Below the pieces are notes generated by a model. That model was not told the DNA's origin and did no database searches. It worked only from the letters and a program-made list of their open reading frames with translations. Position numbers and translations under genes: made by a program. Shown in pieces: positions 5,575-64,000 of a DNA stretch of 64,000 nt. The DNA lies in assembly GCA_017500935.1 (NCBI GenBank), contig JAFVXW010000005.1, forward strand, positions 1 through 64,000, read 5' to 3'. Source of the stretch: Lachnospiraceae bacterium (GTDB lineage: Bacteria; Bacillota; Clostridia; Lachnospirales; Lachnospiraceae). How positions within the stretch are numbered: the first letter of the stretch is position 1; every line of letters begins with the position of its first letter.

Positions 5575-5633
5575 CCAGACAGATTCGGAACAAGTGTACG
5601 CTTCGTACACAGAAACATATTATACAGAAACGT

Positions 5634-5664
5634 AAAAAAAATCGCGCTCATCCGAGCGCGATTT
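5634..5664 (-). terminator. Terminator overlapping the stop codon of the leftward URO-D gene
   Basis: A perfect 11-base stem, AAATCGCGCTC at 5639-5649 and GAGCGCGATTT at 5654-5664, with a 4-base loop. Read leftward it is followed by a run of T (A run at 5634-5640 on the plus strand). The stop codon of the leftward gene (5648-5650) lies at the stem-loop boundary. A separate small hairpin, GTGTACG/CGTACAC at 5594-5610, lies after the rightward transporter gene. Confidence 0.8.
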
Positions 5665-6667
5665 CGTCGTATAAAGCCTGCAGGCTTTCTTTTTTCCAGT
5701 CTTTCGTAGCACCGTTGCCCATGGTCATCATAAAACGTCCGTCAGGGCGGGAGAAGGTATTGATCAGGTAGCGGGCTTCCGCGCGGACTTCCTCAGGTGT
5801 TCCGAAGGGAATTGTCTGCTGTACGTCAAAGCCGGAGAGGAAGCAGATGCGTCCGCCGTATTTTTCAACGATTTCTTTTTCATCCATGGTGTGTTTCTGA
5901 ATCGGATGGATGACGTCAAGGCCGATCTCAATGAAATCTTCCAGGAAGGGTTCGATATTGCCGCAGGTATGCATCCAGAAATGCATGCCAAGCTCATGAG
6001 CCTTGTCAAACATCTGCTTGTAGTAGGGCTTGAAGAAGGTACGGAAAATTTCGGGAGAGAAAAACGGTCCGTTCTGGGTGCCGATGTCATCGGAGGTAAA
6101 AATTGCGTCTACCTGATGCTCTTCTTTGGCTCTTTCCATAATACGGATATAAAAGTCAGTCAGTTTCTGGTAGAGGCGGTGTACTTCCTCGGGGTAGAGA
6201 TAATAGTCGGTCAGTGCATTTTCCATGCCGCGCAGGGACCAGTGACGTTCAAAAAGACAGTAAAACCAATGGCCCAGAATATACTTGGAATGATCCAGCT
6301 CCTTGGGGATAAATACGCAGGGGGAATCCGGAGAGGGGAATTTTGCGTACATTTCTTCCACAAATTCGGTATCTTCCCAGTCTTCGATATAAACAGTGCT
6401 GTCATGGGCGCCGATGATCTGTTCTTTTTTGCCGGCAGGCATCCAGCAGTACTCAGGATCTTCGGCAGGACCCTGGGTCATATAGGGAACCTGAATGGTC
6501 TGCACATCCACATCATAAACCTGATTGTCCAGCCATTCTCTCATTTCTGCTTCACGCTCTTCAAAAGCATCCGGATAAATCCAGAAGGTACAGAGATTGG
6601 GAATACGCTCTGTGGTGCGCTTGCCTTCGATTACATTTTTAACTTCCTGTTTGGTTAAGGATTTCAT
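5648..6667 (-). CDS. URO-D-fold protein (corrinoid methyltransferase-like)
   Basis: About 339 residues of the uroporphyrinogen decarboxylase-fold superfamily, which includes MtaA/CmuA-type methylcobamide:thiol methyltransferases. The zinc-type HxC motif is present (MHTCGN), but the third Cys ligand of MtaA is not evident: the matching C-terminal region reads MTMGNGA. The start is set at the fourth codon of the longest frame (6667), because AGGAG then lies 10 bases upstream; the outer ATG overlaps the binding site. It is divergent from the AraC regulator, with about 125 bp between them, so that regulator is a plausible controller. No corrinoid protein or activating reductase is nearby. It is not likely to be a haem-pathway HemE, since no haem genes accompany it and the sequence is of the Clostridial multi-copy type. 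Confidence 0.75.
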   Translation of the reverse strand: MKSLTKQEVKNVIEGKRTTERIPNLCTFWIYPDAFEEREAEMREWLDNQVYDVDVQTIQVPYMTQGPAEDPEYCWMPAGKKEQIIGAHDSTVYIEDWEDTEFVEEMYAKFPSPDSPCVFIPKELDHSKYILGHWFYCLFERHWSLRGMENALTDYYLYPEEVHRLYQKLTDFYIRIMERAKEEHQVDAIFTSDDIGTQNGPFFSPEIFRTFFKPYYKQMFDKAHELGMHFWMHTCGNIEPFLEDFIEIGLDVIHPIQKHTMDEKEIVEKYGGRICFLSGFDVQQTIPFGTPEEVRAEARYLINTFSRPDGRFMMTMGNGATKDWKKESLQALYDEIALG

Positions 6668-6791
6668 AGATGGCATTCTCCTGTTATTTAGTATATATCT
6701 TTATTATGCCGCAACTTTGATCTGCTGTCACTTGCGAAAATGGCTTTGATACTATACTATATTGCTATAGAAAGTGGATGAGGAGCGCAAT

Positions 6792-7574
6792 ATGGAACTG
6801 ATACACTGCAGCCAGCTGAATCTGGTATATCATCAGGAGACACCGGAAGGAACGGAAGGCAAAAGCATTGGACAAAGAGTCACCGATGCGTATGAATTTG
6901 ATTATATTCTGACTTCCCATCAGGGAAAAATGATAACAGAAGGCGAAACGCTGGATTTGATTCCGGGGATGTTTTTTGTGAGAAGTCCCGGCACGAAGGT
7001 GGAAGGGATCAACAGGTACAGTTCCTGGTATCTGCAGTTTCAGACAGAGGAAAATTTGGAAATACCCTGTTCGCTATGTATTCTTCCTGCAAATCTGTGT
7101 CAGCCTGTTTTCAGAAGGATTTACGATCTGCATGTACAGCAGCCTGTAGGCTATCAGTATGAGATTGATTATTATATGAATACGCTGCTGTTTTACCTTT
7201 ATCAGGAACAGAACCGGCAGAAACAGAATGAAAAAAAGAACCATCCCCTTGCCGGGATCAGGGAAGAAATTGAGCAAAACTGGAATAAGAATTATCCGCT
7301 GGATCATTATGTCCGGATGTCCGGATACAGCAAATCGCGCTTTTGCCACTTGTTTCAGGAACTGTACAGTATTTCTCCGATTCAGTTTATGCATGAAGTG
7401 CGGATGCAGAAGCTTTGTTATCAGCTGATCGAAACAGAAAGACCGGTTAAGGAGCTGATGGTTGAACACGGATACAAAAATGAACAGAGTTTTTACAGGC
7501 TGTTTAAGGAACACACTGGGGAAACACCTTTGTCTTACCGGCAAAAGCACCGTATCCGGCATCCGGGGATGTAA
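6792..7574 (+). CDS. AraC-family transcriptional regulator
   Basis: 260 residues: an N-terminal cupin-like sensing domain (about 1-150) and a C-terminal double helix-turn-helix of about 100 residues with the AraC pattern (GYSKSRFCHLFQE, then EHGYKNEQSFYRLFKEHTG and PLSYR). The ATG at 6792 is chosen over a GTG at 6774 because GAGGAG lies 6 bases before it. TATACT/TATATT boxes sit about 30 bases upstream, with a weak TTGCGA at 6732. It is divergent from the URO-D-fold gene, the usual layout for a regulator and its target. The ligand is unknown; the glycyl radical enzyme cluster is the other possible target. Confidence 0.85.
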   Translation: MELIHCSQLNLVYHQETPEGTEGKSIGQRVTDAYEFDYILTSHQGKMITEGETLDLIPGMFFVRSPGTKVEGINRYSSWYLQFQTEENLEIPCSLCILPANLCQPVFRRIYDLHVQQPVGYQYEIDYYMNTLLFYLYQEQNRQKQNEKKNHPLAGIREEIEQNWNKNYPLDHYVRMSGYSKSRFCHLFQELYSISPIQFMHEVRMQKLCYQLIETERPVKELMVEHGYKNEQSFYRLFKEHTGETPLSYRQKHRIRHPGM

Positions 7575-7648
7575 ATTTATAAAAATTCCCCCTTTTCAAC
7601 CAGCATAAAATCCGTTACACTATAAAAACACAAACACATGATCGGTTT

Positions 7649-7670
7649 CCGGCGGTTTGCCGGATTTTTT
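7649..7670 (+). terminator. Rho-independent terminator after the AraC gene
   Basis: CCGGC, a 5-base loop, GCCGG, then ATTTTTT. It separates the AraC gene from the helicase gene 27 bases further on, so the helicase must have a start site beyond it or depend on read-through. Confidence 0.65.
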
Positions 7671-7696
7671 GCAGTATATTTTTAGTAAGAGGTAGT

Positions 7697-10165
7697 ATGA
7701 GTATTTACGATATGTTAAATGACAGACAGCGTGAGGCTGTTTTTAAAACAAAAGGCCCTGTTCTGATCCTTGCCGGTGCAGGGTCCGGTAAGACAAGGGT
7801 GCTGACGCACAGAATTTCCTATCTGATCGAGCATGACAGGGTGAATCCCTGGCATATTCTGGCGATCACCTTTACCAACAAGGCTGCCGGTGAGATGCGT
7901 GAGCGTGTGGATGATACCATCGGACATGGCTCTGAACAGGTGTGGGTTTCAACCTTCCATTCCACCTGTGTGAGGATTCTGCGCCGTTATATTGACAGGC
8001 TTGGCTATGACACCAATTTTACAATTTACGATACAGATGATCAGAAGAGTGTGATCAAGGAAGTGTGCAAGCGTCTGCAGATCGACACCAAGGTTTACAA
8101 GGAAAAAAGTCTGATGTCTGCCATCTCCTCTGCCAAGGACAGTCTAATCTCACCGACAGAATATGAGCTGCAGGCGATGGGTGACTTTGGCAAAAAGAAG
8201 ATTGCGGAAGTTTACAAAGAGTACCAGATTGCGCTGAAAAAGAATAATGCGCTGGATTTTGACGATCTGATCGTAAAGACAGTGGAACTGTTTAAATCCT
8301 GTCCGGATGTGCTGGATCATTATCAGGAGCGCTTCCGCTATATCATGGTGGACGAGTATCAGGATACCAATACCGCGCAGTTTGAACTGGTGCGCCTGCT
8401 GGCAGGCAAGTACCGCAATCTGTGCGTAGTGGGTGACGATGACCAGTCTATTTATAAATTCCGCGGAGCCAATATCAACAATATTCTTGACTTTGAAAAA
8501 TACTTCCCGGAAGCGGCAGTCATCAAGCTGGAACAAAATTACCGTTCCACCCAGACGATTCTGGACGCTGCCAATGCGGTGATCAAAAATAATATCGAAA
8601 GAAAACCCAAAGCCCTCTGGACCGAAAAAGGGGAGGGTGACCTGATCTGCTTTAAGCAGTTTGATACCGCTTATGATGAAGCGGATTATATTGCGCGGGA
8701 TGTGGCGCGCAACAAAAGAAACCGGGTGGCAGATTACCGGGATTTTGCTGTGCTTTACAGAACCAATGCCCAGTCCCGTCTTTTAGAAGAACGTTTTATC
8801 ATGGAAGGCATTCCCTATGATGTGGTGGGCGGCGTGAATTTCTATGCCCGCCGCGAGATCAAGGATATCCTTGCCTATTTAAAGACGATCGACAACGGTC
8901 AGGATGACCTGCAGGTACGCCGTATCATCAATGTGCCCAAGCGCGGGATCGGAGCCACTACCATCAGTAAGGTGCAGGCATTTGCCGAGGATAATGATAT
9001 GAGCTTTTACGATGCACTTCGCTGTGCGGATGAGATTCCGACCCTTGGCAGAAGCGGTGCAAAGCTGGAACCTTTTGTGACACTGATTCAGTCCCTGCGT
9101 GCCAAGATGGAATTTTACAGCTTAAAAGAGCTGGTAAATGATATCCTGGAGTCCACCGGCTACATTAAGGAGCTTAAAGAAACAGAAGATCCGGAGGAGG
9201 CAGAAGACCGTATCAATAACATCAACGAGCTGATCACGAAGGTGGTTGCTTATGAAGCGTCCGTGGATGAACCTACGCTGAGCGGTTTTCTGGAGGAAGT
9301 GGCGCTGGTGGCGGATATTGACGGTGTGGATGCCGATGACAACAAGGTGCTTCTGATGACCCTGCACTCCGCCAAAGGTCTGGAATTTGACAGAGTGTTC
9401 CTTGCAGGTCTTGAAGACGGTGTGTTCCCCAGCTATATGACGATCGTGGATGACGATCCGACTGCGATCGAAGAAGAACGCCGCCTTGCCTATGTGGGCA
9501 TCACCAGAGCCAGAGAAAATCTGACGATCACCTGTGCAAGACAGCGTATGCTGCGCGGGGAGACACAGTACAATCCGGTGAGTCGTTTTGTGCGCGAGAT
9601 TCCGGCGCATTTGATGGACAATGCACCGGCACCTGTAAAAAAGAGCTCCTTTGGAAGCTTTTTTGAGGATAAAGAAGATACTGCAGATGACAGCAGCGGA
9701 TTTTCGGGCTTTTCCGGTTTTTCGGGATTTAAAGGGTTTGACAAGGAAAACAGCAATCCGGCAGGAAAGAAGAATTCCTTCGGGGAAGCAAAGTCCTTTG
9801 GAAAAAGCGCCGGCAGTACCTCGGGTTCGGGCTGGGGCAGCAGCTTTGGCAGTACGGCAGATGTCTATGCCGGTTACGCTAAGCCCAAGGCAACGGTAAA
9901 ACCCAAGCGCACAGCGACTGAAAACAAACCCTATATTGCCCAGGGGATCGGCAGTCTCAACAATGTTCCCGGACTGCACAAGGGCGGCAGCAAAGCTTCG
10001 GGTCTGGAATACGGCGTAGGAGACAGAGTGCGGCACTTAAAATACGGCGACGGAACGGTCAGCAATATTCAGGACGGCCCCAGAGATTATCAGGTTACCG
10101 TACAGTTTGACGGAGCAGGGCAAAAGATCATGTATGCAGCCTTTGCCAAGCTGAAAAAACTCTGA
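7697..10165 (+). CDS. pcrA: ATP-dependent DNA helicase PcrA/UvrD
   Basis: 822 residues of superfamily 1A 3'-5' helicase, involved in repair, replication restart and clearing of RNA polymerase. Q-motif region MLNDRQREAV; Walker A AGAGSGKT near residue 30; motif II VDEYQDTN; motif III GDDDQSIYKFRG; motif VI VGITRARENL. After the helicase core comes a flexible low-complexity stretch (about 660-765) containing repeated SGF units. The protein ends in the Tudor-like PcrA domain (about 770-822: YGVGDRVRHLKYGDG then the VQFDGAGQKIMY region), known in this family to contact RNA polymerase. The ATG has AGAGG about 6 bases upstream. Family assignment is firm. Confidence 0.95.
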   Translation: MSIYDMLNDRQREAVFKTKGPVLILAGAGSGKTRVLTHRISYLIEHDRVNPWHILAITFTNKAAGEMRERVDDTIGHGSEQVWVSTFHSTCVRILRRYIDRLGYDTNFTIYDTDDQKSVIKEVCKRLQIDTKVYKEKSLMSAISSAKDSLISPTEYELQAMGDFGKKKIAEVYKEYQIALKKNNALDFDDLIVKTVELFKSCPDVLDHYQERFRYIMVDEYQDTNTAQFELVRLLAGKYRNLCVVGDDDQSIYKFRGANINNILDFEKYFPEAAVIKLEQNYRSTQTILDAANAVIKNNIERKPKALWTEKGEGDLICFKQFDTAYDEADYIARDVARNKRNRVADYRDFAVLYRTNAQSRLLEERFIMEGIPYDVVGGVNFYARREIKDILAYLKTIDNGQDDLQVRRIINVPKRGIGATTISKVQAFAEDNDMSFYDALRCADEIPTLGRSGAKLEPFVTLIQSLRAKMEFYSLKELVNDILESTGYIKELKETEDPEEAEDRINNINELITKVVAYEASVDEPTLSGFLEEVALVADIDGVDADDNKVLLMTLHSAKGLEFDRVFLAGLEDGVFPSYMTIVDDDPTAIEEERRLAYVGITRARENLTITCARQRMLRGETQYNPVSRFVREIPAHLMDNAPAPVKKSSFGSFFEDKEDTADDSSGFSGFSGFSGFKGFDKENSNPAGKKNSFGEAKSFGKSAGSTSGSGWGSSFGSTADVYAGYAKPKATVKPKRTATENKPYIAQGIGSLNNVPGLHKGGSKASGLEYGVGDRVRHLKYGDGTVSNIQDGPRDYQVTVQFDGAGQKIMYAAFAKLKKL

Positions 10166-10633: not shown

Positions 10634-12190
10634 ATGATTAAGATGAAAAAGGGACAGATTCGGACAGGAATTGTTGAAAAAGTAAAATTCCCCAATAAAG
10701 CGGTGGTCAGACTGGAACCGGTGATCACGGAAGGAGAACAGGCGGCTGCAGACAATACCGTCAGCGCAGCTGCAAACAATGCGGTTAATGCTGCAGAAGC
10801 AGAATACTGCGTGGTGAAAGGTGCACTGCCCGGACAGCGTGTGCAGCTTGTTGTCACCAAAGTCAGAAACGGCAGGGGAGAGGGCAGATTAAAAGAAATC
10901 CTGCAGATCTCTCCTTTGGAGACCTGTGTGCCCGGCGGCGAAGAATGCTGTAAGCATTTCGGAAGCTGCGGCGGATGTACATATCTTTCCATGTCCTATG
11001 AGGAGAGCTTAAAGATCAAACAGCAGCAGGTGTATGATCTGTTAACACCCGTACTGAAAAAACAAAAAAACATTTGTCAGATGGAGCCCATCAAGGCAAG
11101 TCCGGTTTATTTTGGATACCGTAATAAAATGGAATTTTCCTTCGGCGATGAAGTAAAGGACGGTCCGCTTATGCTGGGAATGCATAAAAAGGGCAGTTTT
11201 TACGATGTTGTGACCGTGGATGACTGCCGTATTGTGGATGCAGATTACAGACAGATCCTGACAGCGACCCTGCAGTATTTTAAGGAACGCAGTATTTCTT
11301 ATTTTCACCGGATGACCCATGAAGGATATCTGCGTCATCTGCTGGTCAGAAAGGCAGCGCATACCGGTAAGATTTTGGTCGCTCTTGTAACTACCAGCGC
11401 AGAAGGTGTTGATATTGAAGGCTGGAAGAATATGCTGCTTGCCCTGCCGCTGGAAGGAAAATTTGCAGGAATTCTTCATATTAAGAATGATGCGCTGGCA
11501 GACGCTGTAAAGAGCGATGAGACTATTGTTTTGTACGGACAGGATCACTTTTATGAAAAACTGCTGGGACTGACCTTTAAAATCTCTGTCTTTTCCTTCT
11601 TCCAGACCAATACCCATTCTGCAGCGGTGCTTTATGAAACTGCCAGAGAATATGTGGGAAGTCTGCTTGACAAAGATGGCAGACCAAACAGCATTGTATA
11701 CGATCTTTATTCCGGAACCGGCACCATTGCACAGCTGATGGCGCCCGTTGCCAAAAAGGTGATCGGTGTGGAGATCGTGGAAGAAGCGGTGGAAGCAGCA
11801 AAGAAAAACGCACAGCATAACGGTCTGGATAACTGTGAATTTATTGCAGGTGATGTGCTGAAAGTACTGGATGATATCGAAGAAAAACCGGATTTTATCA
11901 TTCTGGATCCGCCCCGTGACGGCATTCATCCCAAGGCACTGACCAAGATCATTGATTATGGCGTGGACAGACTGGTTTATATTTCCTGCAAGCCTACCAG
12001 TCTGGCGCGTGATCTGGAAGTTTTCATTGAAAACGGATACGAAGCTGTGCGGTGTGTACCTGTGGATCAGTTCCCCTGGACTTCCGGGATTGAAACTGTG
12101 TGTCTGCTGGTCAAAACACCGCAGCAGCCTGTTAAAAAATTTGAATATCAGGAAGAAGAAGTTGCAGACTGCGCCTGCATTTATGGATAA
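10634..12190 (+). CDS. rlmD: 23S rRNA (uracil-5)-methyltransferase, RlmD/RumA type
   Basis: 518 residues; an S-adenosylmethionine-dependent RNA m5U methyltransferase of the TrmA/RlmD family. An N-terminal TRAM-like domain (1-90) carries an unusual Ala/Asn/Glu-rich insert around residues 36-55. A cysteine cluster follows (CCKHFG, then CGGC), which matches the family's 4Fe-4S site. The SAM site is DLYSGTGTIAQ, the catalytic region is LDPPRDGIHP, and YISCKP carries the nucleophilic Cys. ATG 10634 follows AGGAAAGG by 5 bases. Its 3' end overlaps the convergent serine hydrolase gene by 10 bp with no terminator in between. The exact target uridine cannot be read from sequence (RlmD and RlmCD are alike). 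Confidence 0.88.
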   Translation: MIKMKKGQIRTGIVEKVKFPNKAVVRLEPVITEGEQAAADNTVSAAANNAVNAAEAEYCVVKGALPGQRVQLVVTKVRNGRGEGRLKEILQISPLETCVPGGEECCKHFGSCGGCTYLSMSYEESLKIKQQQVYDLLTPVLKKQKNICQMEPIKASPVYFGYRNKMEFSFGDEVKDGPLMLGMHKKGSFYDVVTVDDCRIVDADYRQILTATLQYFKERSISYFHRMTHEGYLRHLLVRKAAHTGKILVALVTTSAEGVDIEGWKNMLLALPLEGKFAGILHIKNDALADAVKSDETIVLYGQDHFYEKLLGLTFKISVFSFFQTNTHSAAVLYETAREYVGSLLDKDGRPNSIVYDLYSGTGTIAQLMAPVAKKVIGVEIVEEAVEAAKKNAQHNGLDNCEFIAGDVLKVLDDIEEKPDFIILDPPRDGIHPKALTKIIDYGVDRLVYISCKPTSLARDLEVFIENGYEAVRCVPVDQFPWTSGIETVCLLVKTPQQPVKKFEYQEEEVADCACIYG

Positions 12191-53532: not shown

Positions 53533-53811
53533 GTGGGCGAAAATTGTGATGTGATGAAATATTTTGATTACGTGAAGCTTGCCAAAAAAGAGTTTCAGGC
53601 TTTGCTGGATGTTCATCCCGAGCTGTCCGCCCTGTCCGCAAAAGAACTGGAAGTATTTGAACTGCTTTTGACGGATAAGACAATGGTAATGATTGCAGAG
53701 GAGCTGTTTATCTCGCTTTCTGCGGTGCATTTTCATTGTAAAAATATTTATAAAAAGCTGAATGTTTCAAACAGGCGGCAGTTTTTGATCACGTACAAGG
53801 ATTTATGCTGA
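53533..53811 (+). CDS. Small LuxR/GerE-type DNA-binding protein
   Basis: 92 residues starting at GTG 53533, with a strong GGAGGTGGA site 3-4 bases further upstream; the inner ATG at 53554 lacks one. The protein is almost only a LuxR-type helix-turn-helix (ELSALSAKELEVFELLLTDKTMVMIAEELFISLSAVHFHCKNIYKKL, positions 53620-53760). It has no receiver or sensor domain. It resembles the DNA-binding end of the membrane LuxR protein encoded divergently. It lies 55 bp before the first zinc-ribbon gene, so it may be the first gene of that operon and its regulator. Confidence 0.82.
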   Translation: MGENCDVMKYFDYVKLAKKEFQALLDVHPELSALSAKELEVFELLLTDKTMVMIAEELFISLSAVHFHCKNIYKKLNVSNRRQFLITYKDLC

Positions 53812-53866
53812 TATGTCATCCGGACAAGGCGGCAAAGAAAAAAATATTTTACAGGAGGAGTGCAAC

Positions 53867-54427
53867 ATGGCATTTTTTGACAAACTGAATGATTTCGCAA
53901 AGAACATTGGGGATAAGACCAATGATGCGATCGAGACGGGAAAACTTAACAGTAAGATCAACGCAGAGAATAACGCTGCAGGGGAAGAACTGAAAAAAAT
54001 CGGTGCTTTCTATTATGAACAGTTTATGGCAGGTGAATTTGTGGCAGAGCAGGTTCTGGAATTTTGCCAGAATGCAAAGGCTCACTACGATGCGGCAGCG
54101 GCAGCACAGGCTGAGATCGACAAGATCAAGGCTGAAAGTGAAGCTGCAAAGGCGGCAGCAGCACAGGTACAGGCAGCTGCTCAGGCAGCGGCAGTACAGC
54201 CTATGCAGACTGCACCCGTAAATGCGGCACCTGCGGCAGAGGGGGAAGTAATCTGCAGTGCATGCGGCGCAGCAAATGCAGCCGGTGTGAAGTTCTGCAG
54301 AGAATGCGGCAATAAGATGGAAATTCCGGTTCCGGCAGCACCTGCAAAACGTTTCTGCACAGCATGCGGAACAGAAGTGGCACCTGGTGTCAGATTCTGC
54401 CCGGAATGCGGCAGCAAAATGGAATAA
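53867..54427 (+). CDS. Double zinc-ribbon protein with helical N-terminus
   Basis: 186 residues from ATG 53867 (AGGAGGAG 6 bases upstream). About 1-105 are helical and charged (DKLNDFAKNIGDKTNDAIE, then Ala-rich), about 105-128 are an Ala/Gln linker, and two zinc ribbons follow: Cys130, 133, 144, 147 and Cys164, 167, 178, 181 (CSACG...FCRECG and CTACG...FCPECG). This N-terminal module is common in Clostridial zinc-ribbon proteins of unknown function. There is no signal peptide. It is the first of five zinc-ribbon/CxxC proteins in this cluster. Zinc or another metal binding, and protein-protein contacts, are the only roles I would infer. Confidence 0.82.
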   Translation: MAFFDKLNDFAKNIGDKTNDAIETGKLNSKINAENNAAGEELKKIGAFYYEQFMAGEFVAEQVLEFCQNAKAHYDAAAAAQAEIDKIKAESEAAKAAAAQVQAAAQAAAVQPMQTAPVNAAPAAEGEVICSACGAANAAGVKFCRECGNKMEIPVPAAPAKRFCTACGTEVAPGVRFCPECGSKME

Positions 54428-54473
54428 CGGAACAAGTTCCGGTTTTCCATATTAAACGGAGGGAGGTATTTAT

Positions 54474-55559
54474 ATGAACGCAAAACAACTTTTTTCAAAA
54501 ACAATGCCCTTTATCTGGGCTAAAATGCTTTTGGGCGGCGCAACGGTGCTGATCAGTGCCGTATTGCTGGCAATTTTTATGGGACTTGGCTGGCTGTTTG
54601 GTGAGAATGCGATGGTAATTATGTTCATTCTCTGGATTTCCGCAACAGGTGTGGTTCGCTATGCGATCATGCACTATATGGGATATCTGGTGAAAGCAGG
54701 ACACATCGCAGTTATCGCAGAAGCCTGCTTTACCGGTCAGATTCCTGCCAATCAGGTTGAGTACGGCAAAAAAATGGTTACAGAGCGTTTTGCAACCTCC
54801 AATATCTATTTTGCGGTGGATCAGCTTGTATCCGGTGCGGTAAAACAAATCCAGAACAAGATCGGCAAACTTGGAGACAAACTTGATTTTATCCCCGGAA
54901 TGAACGCAGTGACCGGTGCAGCACAGTTTTTTGTCAGTATTTCCTTAGGTTACATAGATGAGTGCTGTCTGGGATGGACATTCTACAACAAAGAGCAGGG
55001 CGCATTTAAGAGCGCGGCTGACGGCGTTGTGATCTATGCACAGAACTGGAAAGTGCTTTTAAAAGATGCGGCAAAGACCATGCTGAAAGTCATTATTCTG
55101 ACCGTTGTTATTACACTGATCATTTTTGTGCCGGTCGGACTGTTGTTTAAACTGTTGAAATGGAGCGGATTTCTGGCATTTATGCTGGCGCTTTTGATCG
55201 CATGGGTTGTGAAGTTTGCGTTTATGGACAGCTATATCATGATTGAGATGATGGCATCCTACATGCAGGTGGCTCCTGCCACACAGATTACGTTCGATCT
55301 GTATTCCACACTGTGCACCTGGTCCTCCAAGTTTAAGGAACTGTTTAAAAAAGGACAGGAAGAAAGTCCTGCACCCGCTTATACAGCTGCATCGGCAGCA
55401 GGATCTGCAGCGCAGACATTTGAAACTGCGGCAGCTCCCGCAGCGCCTGTACAGAGAACGGAAGCATCAGCCGGTACTAAACCTGTTTTTTGCGGACAGT
55501 GCGGCGCAAAAAATGAAGCCGGAACCAAATTCTGCGGTTCCTGCGGCGCAAAGCTCTGA
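54474..55559 (+). CDS. Polytopic membrane protein with C-terminal zinc ribbon
   Basis: 361 residues. Two hydrophobic helices near the N-terminus (about 18-38 and 42-68) and two or three more at about 200-255 (KVIILTVVITLIIFVPVGLLF, then FLAFMLALLIAWVVKFAF) enclose a mixed central region. The last 70 residues are an Ala/Pro linker followed by a zinc ribbon (FCGQCGAKNEAGTKFCGSCG). AGGGAGGT precedes the ATG. It lies 46 bp after the double zinc-ribbon gene. I know no function; the shared ribbon type suggests it assembles with the neighbouring ribbon proteins at the membrane. Confidence 0.8.
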   Translation: MNAKQLFSKTMPFIWAKMLLGGATVLISAVLLAIFMGLGWLFGENAMVIMFILWISATGVVRYAIMHYMGYLVKAGHIAVIAEACFTGQIPANQVEYGKKMVTERFATSNIYFAVDQLVSGAVKQIQNKIGKLGDKLDFIPGMNAVTGAAQFFVSISLGYIDECCLGWTFYNKEQGAFKSAADGVVIYAQNWKVLLKDAAKTMLKVIILTVVITLIIFVPVGLLFKLLKWSGFLAFMLALLIAWVVKFAFMDSYIMIEMMASYMQVAPATQITFDLYSTLCTWSSKFKELFKKGQEESPAPAYTAASAAGSAAQTFETAAAPAAPVQRTEASAGTKPVFCGQCGAKNEAGTKFCGSCGAKL

Positions 55560-55682
55560 TCGGGTTTGTTGGATCTAAATACATAAAGTGCAGCCTGTCG
55601 CTTTTATGATGTGTTGAAGTTGATGCGGGCGGTTGGCGGTAACAGCCAGCTGCCCGTATGACATTTATGAAGGAGGATGATT

Positions 55683-57245
55683 ATGAGTAGATTTTGTACT
55701 GGATGTGGCGCCCCCATATCCGATAATAAAAAATTCTGTACAGAATGCGGAACACCTGTACCTGTTGAAGAAGCGGCAGCGGTTCAGGAAACAATGATTG
55801 AGCAAATGCAGGAAGCGGCTGAGATTCCTGCAGAGACAGTGCAGCAGTCTGAGGCGGAAGCTGTATCTGTACCTTTGGCAGAACCTGTACAGCAGACAGA
55901 AGCTGTACAACCGACAGAACCTGTGCAGCCGGCACAGCCTGTTCGGCCCATGCAGCCGACTCCGGTGCAGCAGGTTTATCAGCAGACACCCGTACAGCCC
56001 GCAAGACAGCAGGCTTCTGCACAGCAGACATATCAGCAGCCTTCGGCACAGCCGGTAAGGCAACAGCAGGCAAAGCAGTCTGCAAGACAACCCCAGGCAA
56101 GGCAGCAGCAGACATCCCAGCCTGCATATCAGCAGCCCCCAGTGCAGCAGGCAGCCTCCCAGCAGTATTATCAGCAGCCTACGGTACAGCCTGTGTACCA
56201 GCAGGCAGCGCCTGCATATGATCCGGACGCAGTACCTCCAAAGGGCAGTAAATATGAGCCGATCACAGCTGGCGGATACATAGGGATCATGTTGTTAATG
56301 TGTATTCCGATCATCGGTCTGATCCTGACGATCATCTGGGCGTGCGGCGGATGTAAAAAGGTTAATAAAAGGAATCTGGCAAAGGCAACCCTGATCATGA
56401 TGGCAATCAGCCTTGTGCTCAGTCTGATCATGGGATTTGTGGTAAAAAAGGTGATCAATTCTGCAATCGAAGCTTCCGGACTTGGCGCAGTCATGTCTGA
56501 ACTGGAAGGCAGCGGTCTGACACAGGAGCAGGAAGATGAAAGTGCTGGTGCACTTGGCGGTCTTCTTGGTCTTATCGGCGGCGGTTCTGATGAAGAAAAC
56601 AGCCCGGCAACAGAACAGAACGGTTTATTCGGACAGAATGAATCTTCCGGACAGAGCGATGCTTCCGGACAAAGTGATTCTGCCGCACAAAGCAGCTCCA
56701 ACGGGCAGGCAGCAGAATCTGACAGCTCTCTGGCGGATGCGCTTGGCGCATTGGCAATTCTTGCCGGTACAGCATCCGGGGATAACAGCAATGTGACCAA
56801 CTCTGATATTGAAGAGTTACAGGCCCTTGGAGCGCTGATCGAAGGTCTGGAAGGTCTTGAAGGCAGCGGTGAGGAAAGCGGACTTGGCGATCTGATCGAC
56901 GGTGCGATCGCGGCAAATCAGGACGCAGAAGCACTCAATGACGGCTGGCCCAAAACTTTGCGTAATTATCCGGACGGAACAGCAACAGCAGTTGCTTCTT
57001 ACCGTACAGAGATTACCGGAACGACCAAAGAAACCATGCTTGGCTGGATTGATCAGCTTAAGATCGATGGTTTTGAATTCCAGGATTTTTACGGATTTGG
57101 TTTCTCTGAATCCGATATGCTGAGCATGGATGCATGGTGGGCATATGATGGAAAGACTTACTTAAGTGTTTCCTATTATGACGGCACAGTTACAGTGGAT
57201 CATACCAAGGAACTTCCTGATCTGGAGAGTTATTTTGGGGGATGA
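55683..57245 (+). CDS. Zinc-ribbon membrane protein with Gln/Pro-rich linker and C-terminal domain
   Basis: 520 residues from ATG 55683 (AGGAGG 6 bases upstream). Order: zinc ribbon (about 3-25, FCTGCG...FCTECG); a long Gln/Pro/Val-rich repeat region with PVQQ, QPVRQQ and YQQP units (about 45-180); two hydrophobic helices (about 197-220 and 232-258) separated by a basic loop with CGGCKK; an acidic Gly/Ser/Gln stretch (about 270-415); and a folded-looking C-terminal domain of about 95 residues (WPKTLRNYPDG, then FQDFYGFGFSESDMLSMDAWWAYDG). The topology is ambiguous because the basic loop between the helices should be cytoplasmic. Function unknown. Confidence 0.8.
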   Translation: MSRFCTGCGAPISDNKKFCTECGTPVPVEEAAAVQETMIEQMQEAAEIPAETVQQSEAEAVSVPLAEPVQQTEAVQPTEPVQPAQPVRPMQPTPVQQVYQQTPVQPARQQASAQQTYQQPSAQPVRQQQAKQSARQPQARQQQTSQPAYQQPPVQQAASQQYYQQPTVQPVYQQAAPAYDPDAVPPKGSKYEPITAGGYIGIMLLMCIPIIGLILTIIWACGGCKKVNKRNLAKATLIMMAISLVLSLIMGFVVKKVINSAIEASGLGAVMSELEGSGLTQEQEDESAGALGGLLGLIGGGSDEENSPATEQNGLFGQNESSGQSDASGQSDSAAQSSSNGQAAESDSSLADALGALAILAGTASGDNSNVTNSDIEELQALGALIEGLEGLEGSGEESGLGDLIDGAIAANQDAEALNDGWPKTLRNYPDGTATAVASYRTEITGTTKETMLGWIDQLKIDGFEFQDFYGFGFSESDMLSMDAWWAYDGKTYLSVSYYDGTVTVDHTKELPDLESYFGG

Positions 57246-57279
57246 TCCGATATCCTGAATGAAAAGATAGGAAAAAACA

Positions 57280-58857
57280 ATGAGTGTAAATAATAGTGAT
57301 TCTTCACAATATGTCAGACAGGCGACTATTACAAGATGTATCACCTACGATCAGATTCGTCAGGAGCCTTCATTTCCCAAGGGGCGTCTGCAATTTGTCG
57401 GCTGGCTGTTTCGGAATATGTGGAAGAGTCTGAAAGCAGGATTTCCTAAAAATCTGTTGATCGTACTCGGACTTGGTTTGTTTTACTGGATCTTCAATCT
57501 GATCTTTTTAGGAATCATCAATGACAGCTGTTTCTTCGGAAACGGACGGTTTTCAAGGTCCAGCGCGATCGCCTATTTGTTTGCGGGACTGGTCTATGAA
57601 AACGGCGCAAAAGGATTTGACTGGATACCGGGCGGCTCCATGACAACCTGGTTTTACAATCTGACATTTTTTACCGCATTATTCTGGCTGGTGGGAAATA
57701 TCTGGCGAAGAATCTGTAAGGAAGGATTTTTGGCACCGATGAAAGATATTTTCCGGATACCTGTCAATATAAAGACATGCTGGAATTCGGTGACAGTATC
57801 CTTTTTAGGAAAAATCATGCTGTATATGGGGCTTGGGATTCTGGCTGGATTTTTAATAAAAAGCCCGTTTACCATGGTCGCACTGACAATATGGCTGTTA
57901 TTGAATTTTGGTCAGGGTGGAGAAAGCTCACTGATCTATATGATGTTTATTTATCAGGGAGCTGTTAATGCAAAGAGTAAAAAGCCCAAAGCGCTGATAA
58001 CCGGTGCGGATGTTGCAGTAAATATTCTTGGTCTTGGACTGGGAATGCTGTTTGCGTTTGTTGTAAGCGTTGTGCTGTGGAATACCACAGATTACCGGAT
58101 ATTATCAAGAGTGCTTTGCTTTCTGCCTCTTGGTATTCTGCTTGTATTTTTTGGCGCTGGAGGCCGGATCACGATGCAGAGCAGAACACAAAAGGCTGCA
58201 ACCATCGTACTTTTGTGTATGGGCAGTGTCTGGCTCAGAACGTTGACCGCATATGCAGATGACGGCGGCTGGACGGAATCGGGCAGTAATATTCCCGGAT
58301 GGCTTGCTAATCCCGGAACACAGCTGATGGAAGCAGCGGGACTTGGCGGACCGGCCGGTATGATTGCCGGATGGCTTGGCAATATGGTAGGAAACGGCGC
58401 GTTGGATCATGTGACAGCAGGACTTGGCAGCGCAGCAGCAGGTATCGGCGCAGGCGCACAGGACGGAGGTATACTGGGAGCCGGACTGGGAGCATATGAA
58501 TCTGCGCTTGGCGGTCTTGGACCGATGGGAAATATGCTTTCCAACGCCTGGAGCGGTGCGATTGATGCGCTTGGAGGCGGTGGCCAGGGTGCGTCAGGAA
58601 GTTCCGGCAGCGGAAGCTGGGGCGGCAGCGGAGGTTCCGGCAGCGGAAGCTGGGGCGGCAGCGGAGGTTCCGGCAACAGTGGAAACTGGGGAAACAGCGG
58701 AAATTCCGGCAACAGCGGAAACTGGGGAAACAGCGGAAATTCCGGCAACAGCGGCAACTGGAACAACAGCGGTAATAATGGAAACAACGGAAATACGAAT
58801 ACGAAACCCGGTACAGGTCTTGAAGAACCGGGCACGGAAGAGGACGAACGTTGGTAA
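57280..58857 (+). CDS. Polytopic membrane protein with Gly/Ser/Trp/Asn repeat tail
   Basis: 525 residues. Residues 1-325 contain about seven or eight hydrophobic helices. The last one (about 305-322, after the basic SRTQK) ends in TLTAYA followed by DDGGW, which looks like a signal-peptidase I site (A-x-A) at the end of an internal signal-like helix. The remaining roughly 200 residues are Gly-rich (GLGGPAGMIAGWLG, then GAGLGAYESALGGLG) and end in 11-12-residue repeats of the SGSGSWGGSGG / SGNSGNWGNSGN type. If cleaved, a secreted Gly-rich domain would be released. Start: ATG 57280, with GATAGGAAA upstream. No family recognised. Confidence 0.75.
   Translation: MSVNNSDSSQYVRQATITRCITYDQIRQEPSFPKGRLQFVGWLFRNMWKSLKAGFPKNLLIVLGLGLFYWIFNLIFLGIINDSCFFGNGRFSRSSAIAYLFAGLVYENGAKGFDWIPGGSMTTWFYNLTFFTALFWLVGNIWRRICKEGFLAPMKDIFRIPVNIKTCWNSVTVSFLGKIMLYMGLGILAGFLIKSPFTMVALTIWLLLNFGQGGESSLIYMMFIYQGAVNAKSKKPKALITGADVAVNILGLGLGMLFAFVVSVVLWNTTDYRILSRVLCFLPLGILLVFFGAGGRITMQSRTQKAATIVLLCMGSVWLRTLTAYADDGGWTESGSNIPGWLANPGTQLMEAAGLGGPAGMIAGWLGNMVGNGALDHVTAGLGSAAAGIGAGAQDGGILGAGLGAYESALGGLGPMGNMLSNAWSGAIDALGGGGQGASGSSGSGSWGGSGGSGSGSWGGSGGSGNSGNWGNSGNSGNSGNWGNSGNSGNSGNWNNSGNNGNNGNTNTKPGTGLEEPGTEEDERW
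58603..58788 (+). repeat. Coding tandem repeat (33 then 36 bp units)
   Basis: Units begin with TCCGGCA at 58603, 58636, 58669, 58705 and 58741; the first two are 33 bp and the next two 36 bp, with a degraded fifth. They encode SGSGSWGGSGG and SGNSGNWGNSGN. Neighbouring units are almost identical at DNA level, so copy number is probably variable between strains. Confidence 0.85.
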
Positions 58858-58882
58858 AAATGAAACGGATTGGGGAAAACAG

Positions 58883-59902
58883 ATGAAAAAACGGATATGT
58901 GCAATGATGCTGGCTGCAAGTATGATCTGTATGAGCGGCTGCAGCATTGGAAAAACAGAAGTAAAGGAGGTCACAGTCTATACGGCAGTTGACCAGATTT
59001 ATGCGGAACCGGTATTTGAGGATTTTGAAAAAGAAACCGGTATCAAAGTCAATGCGGTTTATGATCTTGAAGCCAACAAAACGACAGGTCTTACCAACAG
59101 ACTGATCGCAGAAAAAGAAAATCCGGTATGTGATGTGTACTGGAATAATGAATTTACACAGACTATGCTTTTGCAGGATGAAGGACTTTTACAGCCCTAT
59201 GTGTCTGAAGCTGCTGCAGATATTCCCGATGCCTATAAGGATGCAGATGGTTACTGGACAGCCTTTGGCGGCAGGGCAAGAGTTATGCTTGTCAACACAG
59301 AGCTTTTGTCCGAGGAAGAATATCCGACCAGTATTTATGATCTGATCAGCGGAAAATATGATGCGAAACAGATCGCGATCGCATATCCGATGTTTGGTAC
59401 AACAAGAACACAGGCTGCGGCGGTTTATGCGGCGGTTGGTGCAGAGGAAGGCAGAAGGATTTTTCAGGAATTGGCAGACAGCGGTGTACAGGTGGTGGAT
59501 GGAAATTCCGTTACCCGTGATATAGCTGCTGCAGGACAGGCTGCAATCGGTTATACCGACACAGATGATGCCAAGGGCGCAGTGGAAGACGGAAAGCCTG
59601 TGACGATGGTATTTGCAGATCAGGAAGAAAATCAGATGGGAACATTGATCACTCCCAACACAGCAGCGATGATCGCAGGGGCACCCAACGAAGAGAATGC
59701 AAAGGTATTTATTGACTATATTGTTTCACTGGACAATGAAAAACGTCTGATTGAAGATGGATTTTTTGATCTTTCAGTACGTCCCGGTGTGGATGCCGGT
59801 GGACTTGATGTTATCGGCATGAAAGTGAATCTTAAGGAAGTTTATGAATGTCTGGAAGAAGCGAGCACAGATATGCAGGAAATCTTTGGAGATGCTTCCT
59901 GA
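58883..59902 (+). CDS. Iron/thiamine/phosphonate-type ABC solute-binding lipoprotein
   Basis: 339 residues from ATG 58883; the longer frame runs back through the previous gene and is not real. Lipoprotein signal with lipobox MSGC (Cys20). The mature protein has the AfuA/FutA/ThiB-type fold: VTVYTAVDQIYAEPVFEDFE, then DVYWNNE and TAFGGRARVMLVNT, with a late FIDYIVS and NEKRLIEDGFF. It captures ferric iron, thiamine, a polyamine or 2-aminoethylphosphonate; which one is not clear. It is the first of a coupled importer set with permease and ATPase genes. The cluster context (zinc ribbons) might favour a metal, but that is inference. Confidence 0.85.
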   Translation: MKKRICAMMLAASMICMSGCSIGKTEVKEVTVYTAVDQIYAEPVFEDFEKETGIKVNAVYDLEANKTTGLTNRLIAEKENPVCDVYWNNEFTQTMLLQDEGLLQPYVSEAAADIPDAYKDADGYWTAFGGRARVMLVNTELLSEEEYPTSIYDLISGKYDAKQIAIAYPMFGTTRTQAAAVYAAVGAEEGRRIFQELADSGVQVVDGNSVTRDIAAAGQAAIGYTDTDDAKGAVEDGKPVTMVFADQEENQMGTLITPNTAAMIAGAPNEENAKVFIDYIVSLDNEKRLIEDGFFDLSVRPGVDAGGLDVIGMKVNLKEVYECLEEASTDMQEIFGDAS

Positions 59903-61416
59903 AATGTAAAAAAATACAGCTTGTCGGCGCAGTGATCTGCATTATGTTTTTTGCTGCGCCGCTGGCAGCTCTTTTAGAGCAGGCCGGTGATCCGTTGCTG
60001 GCAATACCAAACGGGAGAAGGCTTAGACTTTTGGGAAATACCCTGCAGCTTGGAATTTTGACGGCGGCAGGATGTATGGTTATCGGTTTTTTTACGGCTG
60101 CGGCAATTTATACAGGCCGTCTGAAAAACAGTATTCTGCGCTGGTGGTTTTTGCTTCTGGCGCCGGTTCCGCAGTATATCTATGCATTGGCATGGATGGA
60201 ACTGGTCCGGATGGCAGGGCAGGTATGGCCAGAACTTTTGGGAATGCAGATATACGGACTTTTTCCTTGTGTGGCTGTAGAAATCATGGCTTATCTGCCT
60301 CTTTGTACAGGGCTTGCCTTGTTGGGACTTGAAAGGCAGGATGCTTCGCTGATACAAGCGGCATTGGTTTGCCGGAAAGGGGACTGTGTGCTGTATCGGA
60401 TATACCTTCCGCAGATGTTTCCCTGGCTTATTTGCGGGGCAGGATGTGTATTTGTTCTTTCGGCGGCAGATTTTTCGATACCGTCGCTGTTTCAGTATAA
60501 TGTGTACGCGATGGAGCTTTTCTCTGATTTTTCGGCATATGGTAAGGCGGTCAATTCCTTGTGGCTGGCTATGCCGTTGATGCTGCTGATCTTGCTGGTG
60601 GTATGGCTGACCCAAAGCAGACTTAAGCAGATTTTGCTTCCGGTTTCTTACAGGAAAACGGTTCCGCTGTATTTGTCCCGGACAACCGTAAGCCTTATGC
60701 GGGCAGCTGTGTTTTTGAGTGTTCTTCAGATTCTGATTCCGCTTTTGACACTGGCAGCTGGAATTGGCGGCTGGGAACAGCTGACGGCCTCGGTGGAGCT
60801 TTCACTGGAGGAATTGTGGGTTTCCTGCAGGATCGGAATCCTCGCGGCGGTGCTCGCGGTGGTTCCGGCAAGTCTGACGGCAGGGCTTCTTTGTGACAGC
60901 AAAAGTTCTTTTTGGCGGATTGTTTTTTTGTTTCCGTTGGCGATGCCTTCTGCATTGGTTGGCGTGGGATGGCTGACACTGCTGAATGGAAGCATTTTTC
61001 ATGGGGTGACTTCAACACTGCTGTTTCCGGCATTGGGCTGTGCAACACGATTTTTGCCTCTGGGTATGCTGGTTTTGATGGGAATATGTTTCGGTGTGGA
61101 TAAAAAAAGTCTGCAGGCGGCACTGCTGCTGCAGAATAACTGGTGGAAAGCAGTTGCTGTTGTAAAAATTCCGGTGTATGCGCCGGGTGTTTGGGCAGCA
61201 GGTTTTCTGGTGTTTCTTCTGACACTGGGAGATGTGGGAGTGACCCTGATGACAGCACCGCCCGGAAAGGAACCTTTTTCCATAAAAATTTACAATTATC
61301 TGCATTATGGTGCATCTGAAATGGTATCTGGGTTTTGTATGGTGATCATTGTCATCTGTCTGGCTGTCATGCTGCTTATGATGCGGATTGTAAGGGGAAG
61401 AAAAAATGGCGCTTGA
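59848..61416 (+). CDS. ABC importer permease, FbpB/ThiP-type fused double permease
   Basis: 522 residues from ATG 59848, which overlaps the binding-protein gene by 55 bp; the true start may be further in (no clear ribosome binding site, and the first helix begins near residue 23). Two homologous permease halves in one chain with about twelve helices. ATPase-docking EAA-like loops lie at about 160-180 (DASLIQAALVCRKGDCVLYRIYLP region) and about 420-445 (KKSLQAALLLQNNWWKAVAVVKIP region). This is the design of the ferric iron, thiamine and phosphonate importers. The stop overlaps the ATPase start by 11 bp. Confidence 0.83.
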   Translation: MSGRSEHRYAGNLWRCFLKCKKIQLVGAVICIMFFAAPLAALLEQAGDPLLAIPNGRRLRLLGNTLQLGILTAAGCMVIGFFTAAAIYTGRLKNSILRWWFLLLAPVPQYIYALAWMELVRMAGQVWPELLGMQIYGLFPCVAVEIMAYLPLCTGLALLGLERQDASLIQAALVCRKGDCVLYRIYLPQMFPWLICGAGCVFVLSAADFSIPSLFQYNVYAMELFSDFSAYGKAVNSLWLAMPLMLLILLVVWLTQSRLKQILLPVSYRKTVPLYLSRTTVSLMRAAVFLSVLQILIPLLTLAAGIGGWEQLTASVELSLEELWVSCRIGILAAVLAVVPASLTAGLLCDSKSSFWRIVFLFPLAMPSALVGVGWLTLLNGSIFHGVTSTLLFPALGCATRFLPLGMLVLMGICFGVDKKSLQAALLLQNNWWKAVAVVKIPVYAPGVWAAGFLVFLLTLGDVGVTLMTAPPGKEPFSIKIYNYLHYGASEMVSGFCMVIIVICLAVMLLMMRIVRGRKNGA

Positions 61417-62059
61417 ACTTTTGGGGGTATCAAAATCATATGGAGATGTCATTGCCGTTGATAAGGTCAGTCTGTGTATCGAAGAAGGGGAACGGGCAGC
61501 GGTGCTTGGAAGCAGCGGCAGCGGTAAAAGCACATTGCTGCATCTGATTGCCGGGCTTTTGGAAACAGATACAGGCAGAGTACTGTTTAGGGGAAAAGAC
61601 CTGGACAAAAGACCGTTTATGCGGGATGTGGCGATGGTTTTTCAGGAACCGGCACTCTGGAATCATATGACGATCGAAAAAAACATTGCGTTTGGATGCC
61701 CTGTCAGGGGGCGCAGAGAACGCAGCAGATATGTTGGCGAACTGGCACAGAAACTGGGGATTGCACATTTGCTGAAGCGGTATCCGGGTGAAATTTCGGG
61801 AGGACAGGCAAGGCGTGCAGCGATCGCAAGAGCACTTGCATGTCAGAGAAAAATACTGCTTTTGGACGAAGCGTTCACAAATCTGGATGAAGAAACCAAA
61901 AAACAGACCATGGATGTGGTAAGGCAGTATTGTGAGAATGCTTCGGCAGTGCTTTTGGTGACACATGATGAAGAAGAGGCACAAAGCTTTTGCAGCACCA
62001 TCTACCGGATGGAAAAAGGAAAGTTAGTCAGGGAGAGTACGGATCATGAAAAAGAATAA
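61406..62059 (+). CDS. ABC importer ATPase
   Basis: 217 residues, a single nucleotide-binding domain without the C-terminal TOBE domain found in many FbpC proteins. Walker A GSSGSGKST, Q-loop VFQEPALW, signature ISGGQARR, Walker B ILLLDEAFTNLD and the switch His in VTHDEEEA are all intact. The start overlaps the permease gene by 11 bp and its end overlaps the propeller gene by 14 bp, so all four are translationally coupled. It powers the importer. Confidence 0.9.
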   Translation: MALELLGVSKSYGDVIAVDKVSLCIEEGERAAVLGSSGSGKSTLLHLIAGLLETDTGRVLFRGKDLDKRPFMRDVAMVFQEPALWNHMTIEKNIAFGCPVRGRRERSRYVGELAQKLGIAHLLKRYPGEISGGQARRAAIARALACQRKILLLDEAFTNLDEETKKQTMDVVRQYCENASAVLLVTHDEEEAQSFCSTIYRMEKGKLVRESTDHEKE

Positions 62060-63140
62060 AGCTTTTTTGTTTCTGTTGTTTATACTGTTCCTGGCCGTAT
62101 GTCCGGCTTGCGCTGGTCTGATGCAGAATACAGAATCAGAGCCGAAGAATCTGAGCGGTATGAGTGTCTTTTTGGAAGGACAGGAAATATCTGCATTATA
62201 TGATGACGGCAAATATCTCTGGGTAGGAGGAAAAAGCGGCATTGTACTGCTTGACCGTTCCACTGGAGAATTACATAAAAAACTGGATGCAGAGATTGAA
62301 ATGGTGTATGCGTCCGGGATTGAAAAATCCGCTGACGGGCTGATATGGGCAGGGCACAGCGGTGGTGTTACAGCATTTTCTCCGGAGGGAGCAGAACTGT
62401 TTTCTATTTCGGAACCGCAGATTCCCGGCGGCAGAGTCAATGCGCTGCTGGCTGATGGAAAGGGTCTGTGGATCGGAGCGATGGAGGGAGCTGCTTATCT
62501 GGAAAAAAACGGAGAAAGCTGGCAGGTGAAGGAGATTCTGACATCTGAAAATGGATTGTCCGATGACTGCGTGAATGTACTTTTTAAAAATGAAGATGAA
62601 ATTTGGTTTGGAACATATCTGGCAGCAGGAAAAGGAGGCTGCAGCATCCGTGACAGGGATGGAAACTGGAAGCATCTTTCTGTGGATGAAGGATTGCCGC
62701 ACAGGTATGTCAATGCGATCCTGCCGGTTTTAAAACAGGAAATTCTGATTGCTGCGGGGCATTTGAATCATGGCGGTATGGCGAGAGCATACCGGCAGGA
62801 AGATGGCGGCTGGCAGATCACAAAAACCTGGAACCGGGAAGATAAGATACCCGGAGATAAAGTAAGATGGCTGTTTTTGGACAGCGCCGGACGGCTGTGG
62901 ATCACAACGGAATCCAATGGTATTTTGTTATGTCAGTCTGTGGATTCACTGCAGTCACCGATTGAAAATGCACTCGTGCTGACTACGCAGAGCGGTTTGT
63001 CGGACAATGAAGTGAAAGTGATCGCAGAATGTGATGACTGTATCTGGTTAGGCAGCAGAATGGGGCTGACCAGAGTGGAAAAATCGGAAATCGACCAATG
63101 GTTTCAAATATATTTACAAGGAGGAAACAACAATGGCTGA
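62046..63140 (+). CDS. Secreted beta-propeller protein with Reg_prop-like repeats
   Basis: 364 residues. The N-terminal export signal (about 1-24, KKNKAFLFLLFILFLAVC) is followed by seven or so short repeats with LW(I/V)G cores: YLWVGGKSGIVLLD, LIWAGHSGGVTAF, LWIGAMEGAAYLE, IWFGTYLAAGKGG, LWITTESNGILL and IWLGSRMGLTRVE, each preceded by a VxAL/VNVL strand. These are two-component-regulator propeller repeats, normally the sensor part of hybrid kinases; here they stand alone. The lipobox is not convincing (AVC or PAC before Cys), so lipid anchoring is uncertain. It overlaps the ATPase gene by 14 bp and the zinc-ribbon gene by 8 bp. Ligand unknown. Confidence 0.8.
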   Translation: MKKNKAFLFLLFILFLAVCPACAGLMQNTESEPKNLSGMSVFLEGQEISALYDDGKYLWVGGKSGIVLLDRSTGELHKKLDAEIEMVYASGIEKSADGLIWAGHSGGVTAFSPEGAELFSISEPQIPGGRVNALLADGKGLWIGAMEGAAYLEKNGESWQVKEILTSENGLSDDCVNVLFKNEDEIWFGTYLAAGKGGCSIRDRDGNWKHLSVDEGLPHRYVNAILPVLKQEILIAAGHLNHGGMARAYRQEDGGWQITKTWNREDKIPGDKVRWLFLDSAGRLWITTESNGILLCQSVDSLQSPIENALVLTTQSGLSDNEVKVIAECDDCIWLGSRMGLTRVEKSEIDQWFQIYLQGGNNNG

Positions 63141-63699
63141 TATTTTTAGCGGATTAGGATTGGGAGGACTTATGAAAGGATTGTCCAGCATTATGCCTCA
63201 GGATGATCCCGGAACACAGCTTTTAAAGATGCAGGGGGATGTCAGTGATTTAAAGAAGCAGGAAAATGATCTTTATACCCAGATCGGAAAAATGGCTGTG
63301 GAGCAGTATGGTCTGGAAAACTTTGGGGAACTTGCGGAGCGTCTGCAGCTGACACAGGCAAATCTGGCAGCAGCCCAGCAGAAGCTTGCAGCGGCACAGG
63401 CGGAAGCAGAAGAACAGGAGCGTATCCGCAAAGCGGCACTGGCAGAAAGAACCTGCAGTCAGTGCGGCTATGAAAATCCGGAAGGAACCAAGTTCTGTCA
63501 GGAATGCGGCAATAAGCTTGGAACTGTACAGAATCTTTGCCCTGCCTGCGGCGCGCAGAATGCACCGGGCGTAAAATTCTGTCAGGAATGCGGCAATAAG
63601 CTCAAAACAGAAAGCACCGGAATCTGTCCTGCCTGCGGAAAGGAAAACCCTGCAGGAACACGTTTTTGCGGTGACTGCGGAGAAAGATTGGAGGCGTAA
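63133..63699 (+). CDS. Triple zinc-ribbon protein with coiled coil
   Basis: 188 residues. A short Gly-rich start, a helical coiled-coil region (about 30-105, Ala/Gln/Glu-rich), then three zinc ribbons in a row: CSQCGYENPEG...FCQECG, CPACGAQNAPG...FCQECG and CPACGKENPAG...FCGDCG. The ATG lies within the end of the propeller gene, with AGGAGG 8 bases upstream. The layout matches the double zinc-ribbon protein at the head of the cluster, so the cluster is bracketed by two related proteins. Cytoplasmic; role unknown. Confidence 0.82.
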   Translation: MADIFSGLGLGGLMKGLSSIMPQDDPGTQLLKMQGDVSDLKKQENDLYTQIGKMAVEQYGLENFGELAERLQLTQANLAAAQQKLAAAQAEAEEQERIRKAALAERTCSQCGYENPEGTKFCQECGNKLGTVQNLCPACGAQNAPGVKFCQECGNKLKTESTGICPACGKENPAGTRFCGDCGERLEA

Positions 63700-63701
63700 G
63701 T

Positions 63702-64000
63702 ATGCTGACTTCTTTTACCCGGAATTATTATGATAATTCCACGGAAGCGGGTTTTCAGTTTACCTTTTACTGTGATATCTGCAATGACGGTTTCAAAAGC
63801 AGTTTTATTGAAAGTGAAACCTATAAAAAAGGAAAGCTGTTTAGGGGAATCGGAGACGGCGTGTATGCGATCGGAAGCATCTTTGGCGGCAGAATGGGGA
63901 ATCTTGGCTATGGAGCCGACCGTGCTACCGATATTTTGAGTGAACGCTTTACCGATCGTTCTCCGGAATGGCAGAGAGAACATGAGCTTGCTTTTGAAAA
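63702..64000 (+). CDS. CxxC-containing protein of the same cluster (cut by window end)
   Basis: ATG 63702 lies 2 bases after the stop of the triple zinc-ribbon gene, with GGAGG 12 bases upstream inside that gene, and the frame stays open for 99 codons to the window edge. It begins MLTSFTRNYYDNSTEAG, then FTFYCDICNDGFKSSFIE with a CxxC pair that may be half of a metal site. A Gly-rich hydrophobic stretch follows (GIGDGVYAIGSIFGGRMGNL). I do not know a function. It extends the operon beyond the window. Confidence 0.7.
   Translation, partial: MLTSFTRNYYDNSTEAGFQFTFYCDICNDGFKSSFIESETYKKGKLFRGIGDGVYAIGSIFGGRMGNLGYGADRATDILSERFTDRSPEWQREHELAFE

Follow-up and report, generated by a model that had tools for sequence, protein, structure and literature searches.

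Do the genes packed into the end of a 64,000-nucleotide window from a Lachnospiraceae bacterium (contig JAFVXW010000005.1, positions 1 to 64,000; "the window" is this whole stretch) encode one system, or has more than one been joined there? An earlier note had listed eleven same-strand genes, among them zinc-ribbon proteins, a complete ATP-binding cassette (ABC) importer and a secreted propeller, and had proposed that they form a single envelope complex, in which ribbon proteins of the membrane, assembled around the importer, would report its state. The open frames agree with its gene count, and the junctions from the substrate-binding lipoprotein (SBP) to P11 are, as it stated, overlaps of 55, 11, 14 and 8 base pairs (bp) and then a 2-bp gap. 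Comparison across genomes suggests that the stretch is composite, with two conserved modules, A and B, merged in it; we found no description of either in the literature searched. Module A (P3, P4, P10, P11, P12 and a polytopic LuxR regulator) appears to be a separate zinc-ribbon envelope cassette, and module B appears to comprise P5, the SBP, a permease, an ATPase and the propeller. Three kinds of observation carry this reading: the gene associations, an exchange of residues in the SBP and a conserved site in P5.

The case for separating the modules begins with P11, a conserved multi-ribbon protein (63702..64000 in the window, ending at 64466 of the contig; all genes are on the plus strand unless stated). 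Of 169 relatives confirmed in the species collection we kept the best 80; with a truncated copy in genome G036 these make 81 other A loci, and profiles for the SBP, permease, propeller, P5 and B8 found no match at E 1e-5 in any of the 81. What accompanies P11 there is a varying set of ribbon and membrane genes: a gene for a ribbon protein of ~118 amino acids (aa), absent from the window, in 67/81; P10 (63133..63699; a coiled coil with three ribbons) by profile in 54/81; polytopic LuxR proteins of any of three families in 26/81; genes of the type of P12 (64517..65044, outside the window and the twelfth same-strand gene; 175 aa, a ribbon and ~3 transmembrane segments) in 19/81; hairpins of the P4 type in 12/81; and P3 (54474..55559; polytopic, with a C-terminal ribbon) in 4/81. 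P4 itself (55677..57245; a ribbon, a transmembrane hairpin and a DUF6591-like tail) lies at the seam of the modules; its tail is also present in loci L122 and L123, and the hairpin profile also matches B loci L218, L219 and L247. L122 carries a ribbon gene, P3, P4, P10, the small ribbon gene, P11 and P12 in window order, without importer or propeller.

Some further loci deserve separate mention. In 13/81 loci (e.g., L122, L123, L139, L162, L165) cassette A is adjoined by a pair, perhaps ligand-sensing: a solute-binding lipoprotein and a membrane LuxR protein whose outer domain is large. In L107 of G036 (11821-12051), P11 is reduced to a 76-aa piece adjoined by intact relatives of P10 and the small ribbon gene. 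By eye, P2-like ribbon proteins in L110 (G003) and L111 (G256) lie amid large envelope proteins that are EssC-, VWA- and RCC1-like.

Module B has its own distribution. Among 249 other genomes of the family, none has an orthologue of P5 or of the propeller, and the best permease match in 79 relatives (12 of the same genus) reaches 53.6 bits at 23% identity, so the importer module is accessory in this lineage. More widely, and with at most 3 to 5 candidates scored per genome, the permease profile at E 1e-20 matched 3/390 other genomes of the class, the SBP profile at E 1e-40 matched 20/397 other genomes of the phylum (6 at 427-461 bits, 14 at 145-190 bits) and the P5 profile at E 1e-8 matched 11/383, some of these matches being weak. 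A permease search of 49 cassette-A genomes returned one orthologue, in G330 (Oscillospiraceae, the genome of L157), whose B locus (L214) matches the window at 72% for the SBP, 46% for the permease, 48% for the propeller and 60% over 134 aa for a P5 gene that is cut by the contig start and divergent from the importer genes; an ATPase is also present. P11 occurs in 2/11 B genomes: that of the window and G330, which is closest to the window by SBP and has the two modules on different contigs. Among the loci examined, A and B stand side by side in the window only. Here B lies between P4 and P10 of A, and the two are therefore probably co-expressed; most of the ribbon genes beside the importer belong to module A rather than B.

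The composition of module B was read from 13 loci with an orthologous SBP: the window, 10 other chromosomal loci and two Picosynechococcus plasmids (five such plasmids have the propeller; two of these were read). The cluster includes a propeller in 12/13, a ribbon protein in 12/13, an ATPase in 11/13 and a P5-like gene in 9/13, and the SBP, permease and ATPase are all present in 11/13. This composition sets B apart from its closest kin, the iron-type paralogues: propeller, P5 and B8 matches were found in 0/14 of the paralogue loci (two of them cut close to the SBP), and genome-wide the propeller is present in 11/11 B genomes searched versus 0/14 paralogue-only genomes. The sequence of L255 and of L261 stops at the SBP or close to it, which leaves the downstream side out of view, and their genomes were covered for the propeller only. 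ATPase length separates the groups too, at 215-242 aa in 10/11 ATPase-bearing B loci versus 345-363 aa in 12/14 paralogue loci; the L261 ATPase has 226 aa, and an open reading frame (ORF) with a CxxC pair motif lies five ORFs upstream of the SBP in L252. One part of the earlier note's proposal therefore stands: importer, propeller and ribbon membrane proteins are a recurrent unit. The other part, which makes the eleven genes a single set, is not supported, given the 81 other P11 loci that lack SBP, permease, propeller and P5 matches. On the gene-neighborhood comparison that the note had suggested, ABC genes regularly occur without their partner genes (propeller, P5 and B8) among the iron-type paralogues, and do not regularly occur without ribbon and membrane genes in the orthologous SBP clade.

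The SBP (58883..59902) shows what may have changed in the importer. It passes the SBP_bac_8 cut-off, belongs to the FbpA superfamily, and its best PDB matches are ferric binding proteins (phmmer E 5e-18 to 7w3w; profile E 9.8e-23 to 1y4t); the methionine at 58883 precedes the lipobox MSGC. In the SBP tree, a branch with support 100/100 separates the 11 chromosomal B proteins from the 14 paralogues. In FbpA, a double tyrosine is the Fe(III) ligand. All 14 paralogues have NNYY(Y/F)H, and all 13 B proteins have TDTDDA at the same place; D41, D65, E67, E94 and D217 (numbering from 58871) are also invariant in the 13. The replacement of the tyrosines by TDTDDA argues against ferric import, and the new ligand of the B importer is probably cationic. 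The fused permease (59848..61416) matches no Pfam family at E values up to 0.1 and has NCBIfam matches below cut-off, and the short ATPase (61406..62059; 217 aa) matches ABC_tran at E 3.1e-35.

The third observation concerns P5 (57280..58857), a polytopic membrane protein that, like the permease, matches no Pfam family within the E limit of 0.1. At the end of its last hydrophobic segment it has AYA followed by DDGGW, and then a Gly/Ser/Asn/Trp tail of 199 aa, which is low-complexity and has no Pfam domain. The pattern of [AV]xA and then (D/H)D(G/C)G recurs at this position in 12/12 P5-like proteins read, and [AV]xA is consistent with the signal peptidase -3/-1 rule. Past the site, tails run from 106 to 607 aa, many of them repetitive, and they vary in repeat type as well as in length; the tail of the Picosynechococcus sp. 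PCC 7002 protein ends in an HEVKH region with a sub-cutoff match to a metallopeptidase family. The profile survey gave 18 P5 places, and the neighbors were read at all but six of them (one each in G912, G1047, G787, G867, G899 and G1008). A weak match in G911 (291 aa) is without the motif and has a B8-like gene near it. In L289 of G816 (5105-9916), a P5-type membrane domain is joined to ten RHS repeats and DUF6531, with neither propeller nor importer adjoining. In the genomes of L244-L246 and G360, P5 lies beside a further propeller, away from the importer.

We propose that module B arose from an FbpA-type ferric importer in which the Fe(III) tyrosines were exchanged for the invariant acidic TDTDDA and the ATPase became usually short. 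The importer would take up a small, probably cationic ligand (a divalent metal, a polyamine or similar) through its acidic pocket. The last helix of P5 may serve as an internal signal sequence, at which signal peptidase would expose or free the tail; the propeller (62046..63140; Reg_prop) would bind that tail, or its target, outside, and ribbon proteins would hold the complex together inside. The composite of two modules with a repurposed ferric importer, propeller, P5 and ribbon partners is, taken as a whole, a good possibility that falls short of probable. Its boldest form is doubtful, and on balance rather unlikely: module B as a machine common to gut anaerobes and cyanobacteria that displays and releases surface proteins and is assembled from inside by ribbon proteins. 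Importer and propeller would work together with the polytopic P5, which would carry variable tails (RHS-type in some relatives) and, through a signal sequence built into its last helix, allow signal peptidase to cut them free.

Several observations weigh against this proposal. The cluster is incomplete in places: L218 is without propeller and ATPase, L220 is without ATPase, L214 has no ribbon gene adjoining, and the L219 ATPase has 366 aa. P5 and importer are found at separate places in three genomes, so the two need not act together. Five further P5-like proteins (956-1603 aa) are stand-alone, with a propeller in 0/5 of the stretches read; ADDGG is found in three of them, with Leu at -3, and is missing in two. 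P5 topology was judged by eye from hydropathy, and the ligand, the cleavage and the contacts within module B are predicted.

Each rival explanation fits part of these data. Module B may be a nutrient importer of the ordinary kind whose ligand is new, for which propeller, P5 and ribbons are capture or assembly accessories and from which nothing is released; this is possible, with doubt prevailing. The complete SBP, permease and ATPase of 11/13 loci and the invariance of the acidic SBP positions speak for such an importer, but the pairing of P5 and propeller away from it in four genomes does not, and the RHS repeats or other long tails borne by P5 domains would be odd for an importer subunit. 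Those tails are what a polymorphic-toxin-like delivery system with P5 as the carrier of effectors would lead one to expect, given their differences in length and repeat type and the fusion in L289 to ten RHS repeats and DUF6531. We regard this as improbable: the window tail is low-complexity without a Pfam domain, the RHS form stands by itself, adjoined by neither importer nor propeller, and no immunity gene was identified.

The remaining alternative retains the idea of the earlier note, with all twelve genes as one envelope complex that has been split in other genomes. The tight junctions in the window favor it, as does the presence of both modules in G330, the nearest B relative, though on different contigs. 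Set against this are the absence of B from 81/81 other A loci, the absence of P11 from 9/11 B genomes and the ribbon proteins that most B loci have of their own, and we hold a single complex to be quite improbable.

Known systems resemble the composite of two modules in parts. FbpA/SfuA-type ferric ABC importers share the SBP superfamily, a fused permease and an ATPase with module B, but B differs in TDTDDA, the short ATPase and the propeller, P5 and ribbon partners; the double-tyrosine Fe(III) ligands of the ferric type are replaced in 13/13 B proteins, and its C-terminal regulatory domain is, judged by length, lacking in the 217-aa window ATPase. Putative 2-aminoethylphosphonate (AEP) importers (PhnS2/PhnU2/PhnT2) give the best NCBIfam matches of the window SBP, far under the curated cut-offs (PhnS2, 89.9 versus 392.75 bits), and one plasmid-borne AEP-annotated binding protein is without TDTDD. 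The propeller repeats recall Reg_prop hybrid sensor kinases (PDB 4a2l, 3v9f), whereas the window propeller is stand-alone, exported and ~360 aa long, and no kinase or response domain was found among the window proteins scanned. The pspA-ydjGHI membrane-stress operon of Bacillus subtilis likewise has a zinc-finger protein and membrane anchors, which are reported to share one complex (PMC8581546); the window proteins scanned contain no PspA or SPFH domain. The nearest published parallel to P5 in the literature searched is the PrsW route of polymorphic toxins, in which a polytopic N-terminal domain is joined to RHS repeats (PMC3482391). The P5-like proteins scanned differ in having no PrsW match in Pfam, and the cut proposed for P5 would fall at a signal-peptidase-like site; repeats with a toxin domain are absent from the window P5, RHS being found in the relative L289 only.

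The remaining genes of the run lie at its upstream end. P0 (51556..53076, minus strand), the divergent polytopic LuxR-type regulator of module A, has ~11 hydrophobic segments and a GerE match at E 2.5e-19, and its family (cluster c8) adjoins P11 cassettes in 6 other loci. P1 (53533..53811) is a small LuxR helix-turn-helix protein (GerE, E 1.6e-15). P2 (53813..54427, or from an internal ATG at 53867) is an open frame with a coiled coil and, by zinc-ribbon models, two C-terminal ribbons; its profile matches 5/81 A loci and, weakly, two B loci. Across the window proteins, the Pfam cut-offs passed were those of GerE, zinc-ribbon models, SBP_bac_8, ABC_tran and Reg_prop. Terminator-like sites between 50500 and 64000 number 14, against 11.0 +/- 3.3 expected by chance, and since this is near the chance number, a single transcript for the run is plausible. 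Past the window, L003 (8656-17971) encodes, by eye, a microcompartment-like set of a glycyl-radical enzyme, an activase, an aldolase, an aldehyde dehydrogenase and small shell-like proteins.

The gene set that these data define can be tested: it is a clade of importers of the iron type that lack the iron ligands and have recurrent surface and ribbon partners, and whose genes would be misleadingly named as iron importers on similarity. The P5 domain may be an unrecognized carrier of variable exported tails. Module B is present both in gut anaerobes and in Picosynechococcus sp. PCC 7002, a tractable cyanobacterium, where it lies on plasmid pAQ7.
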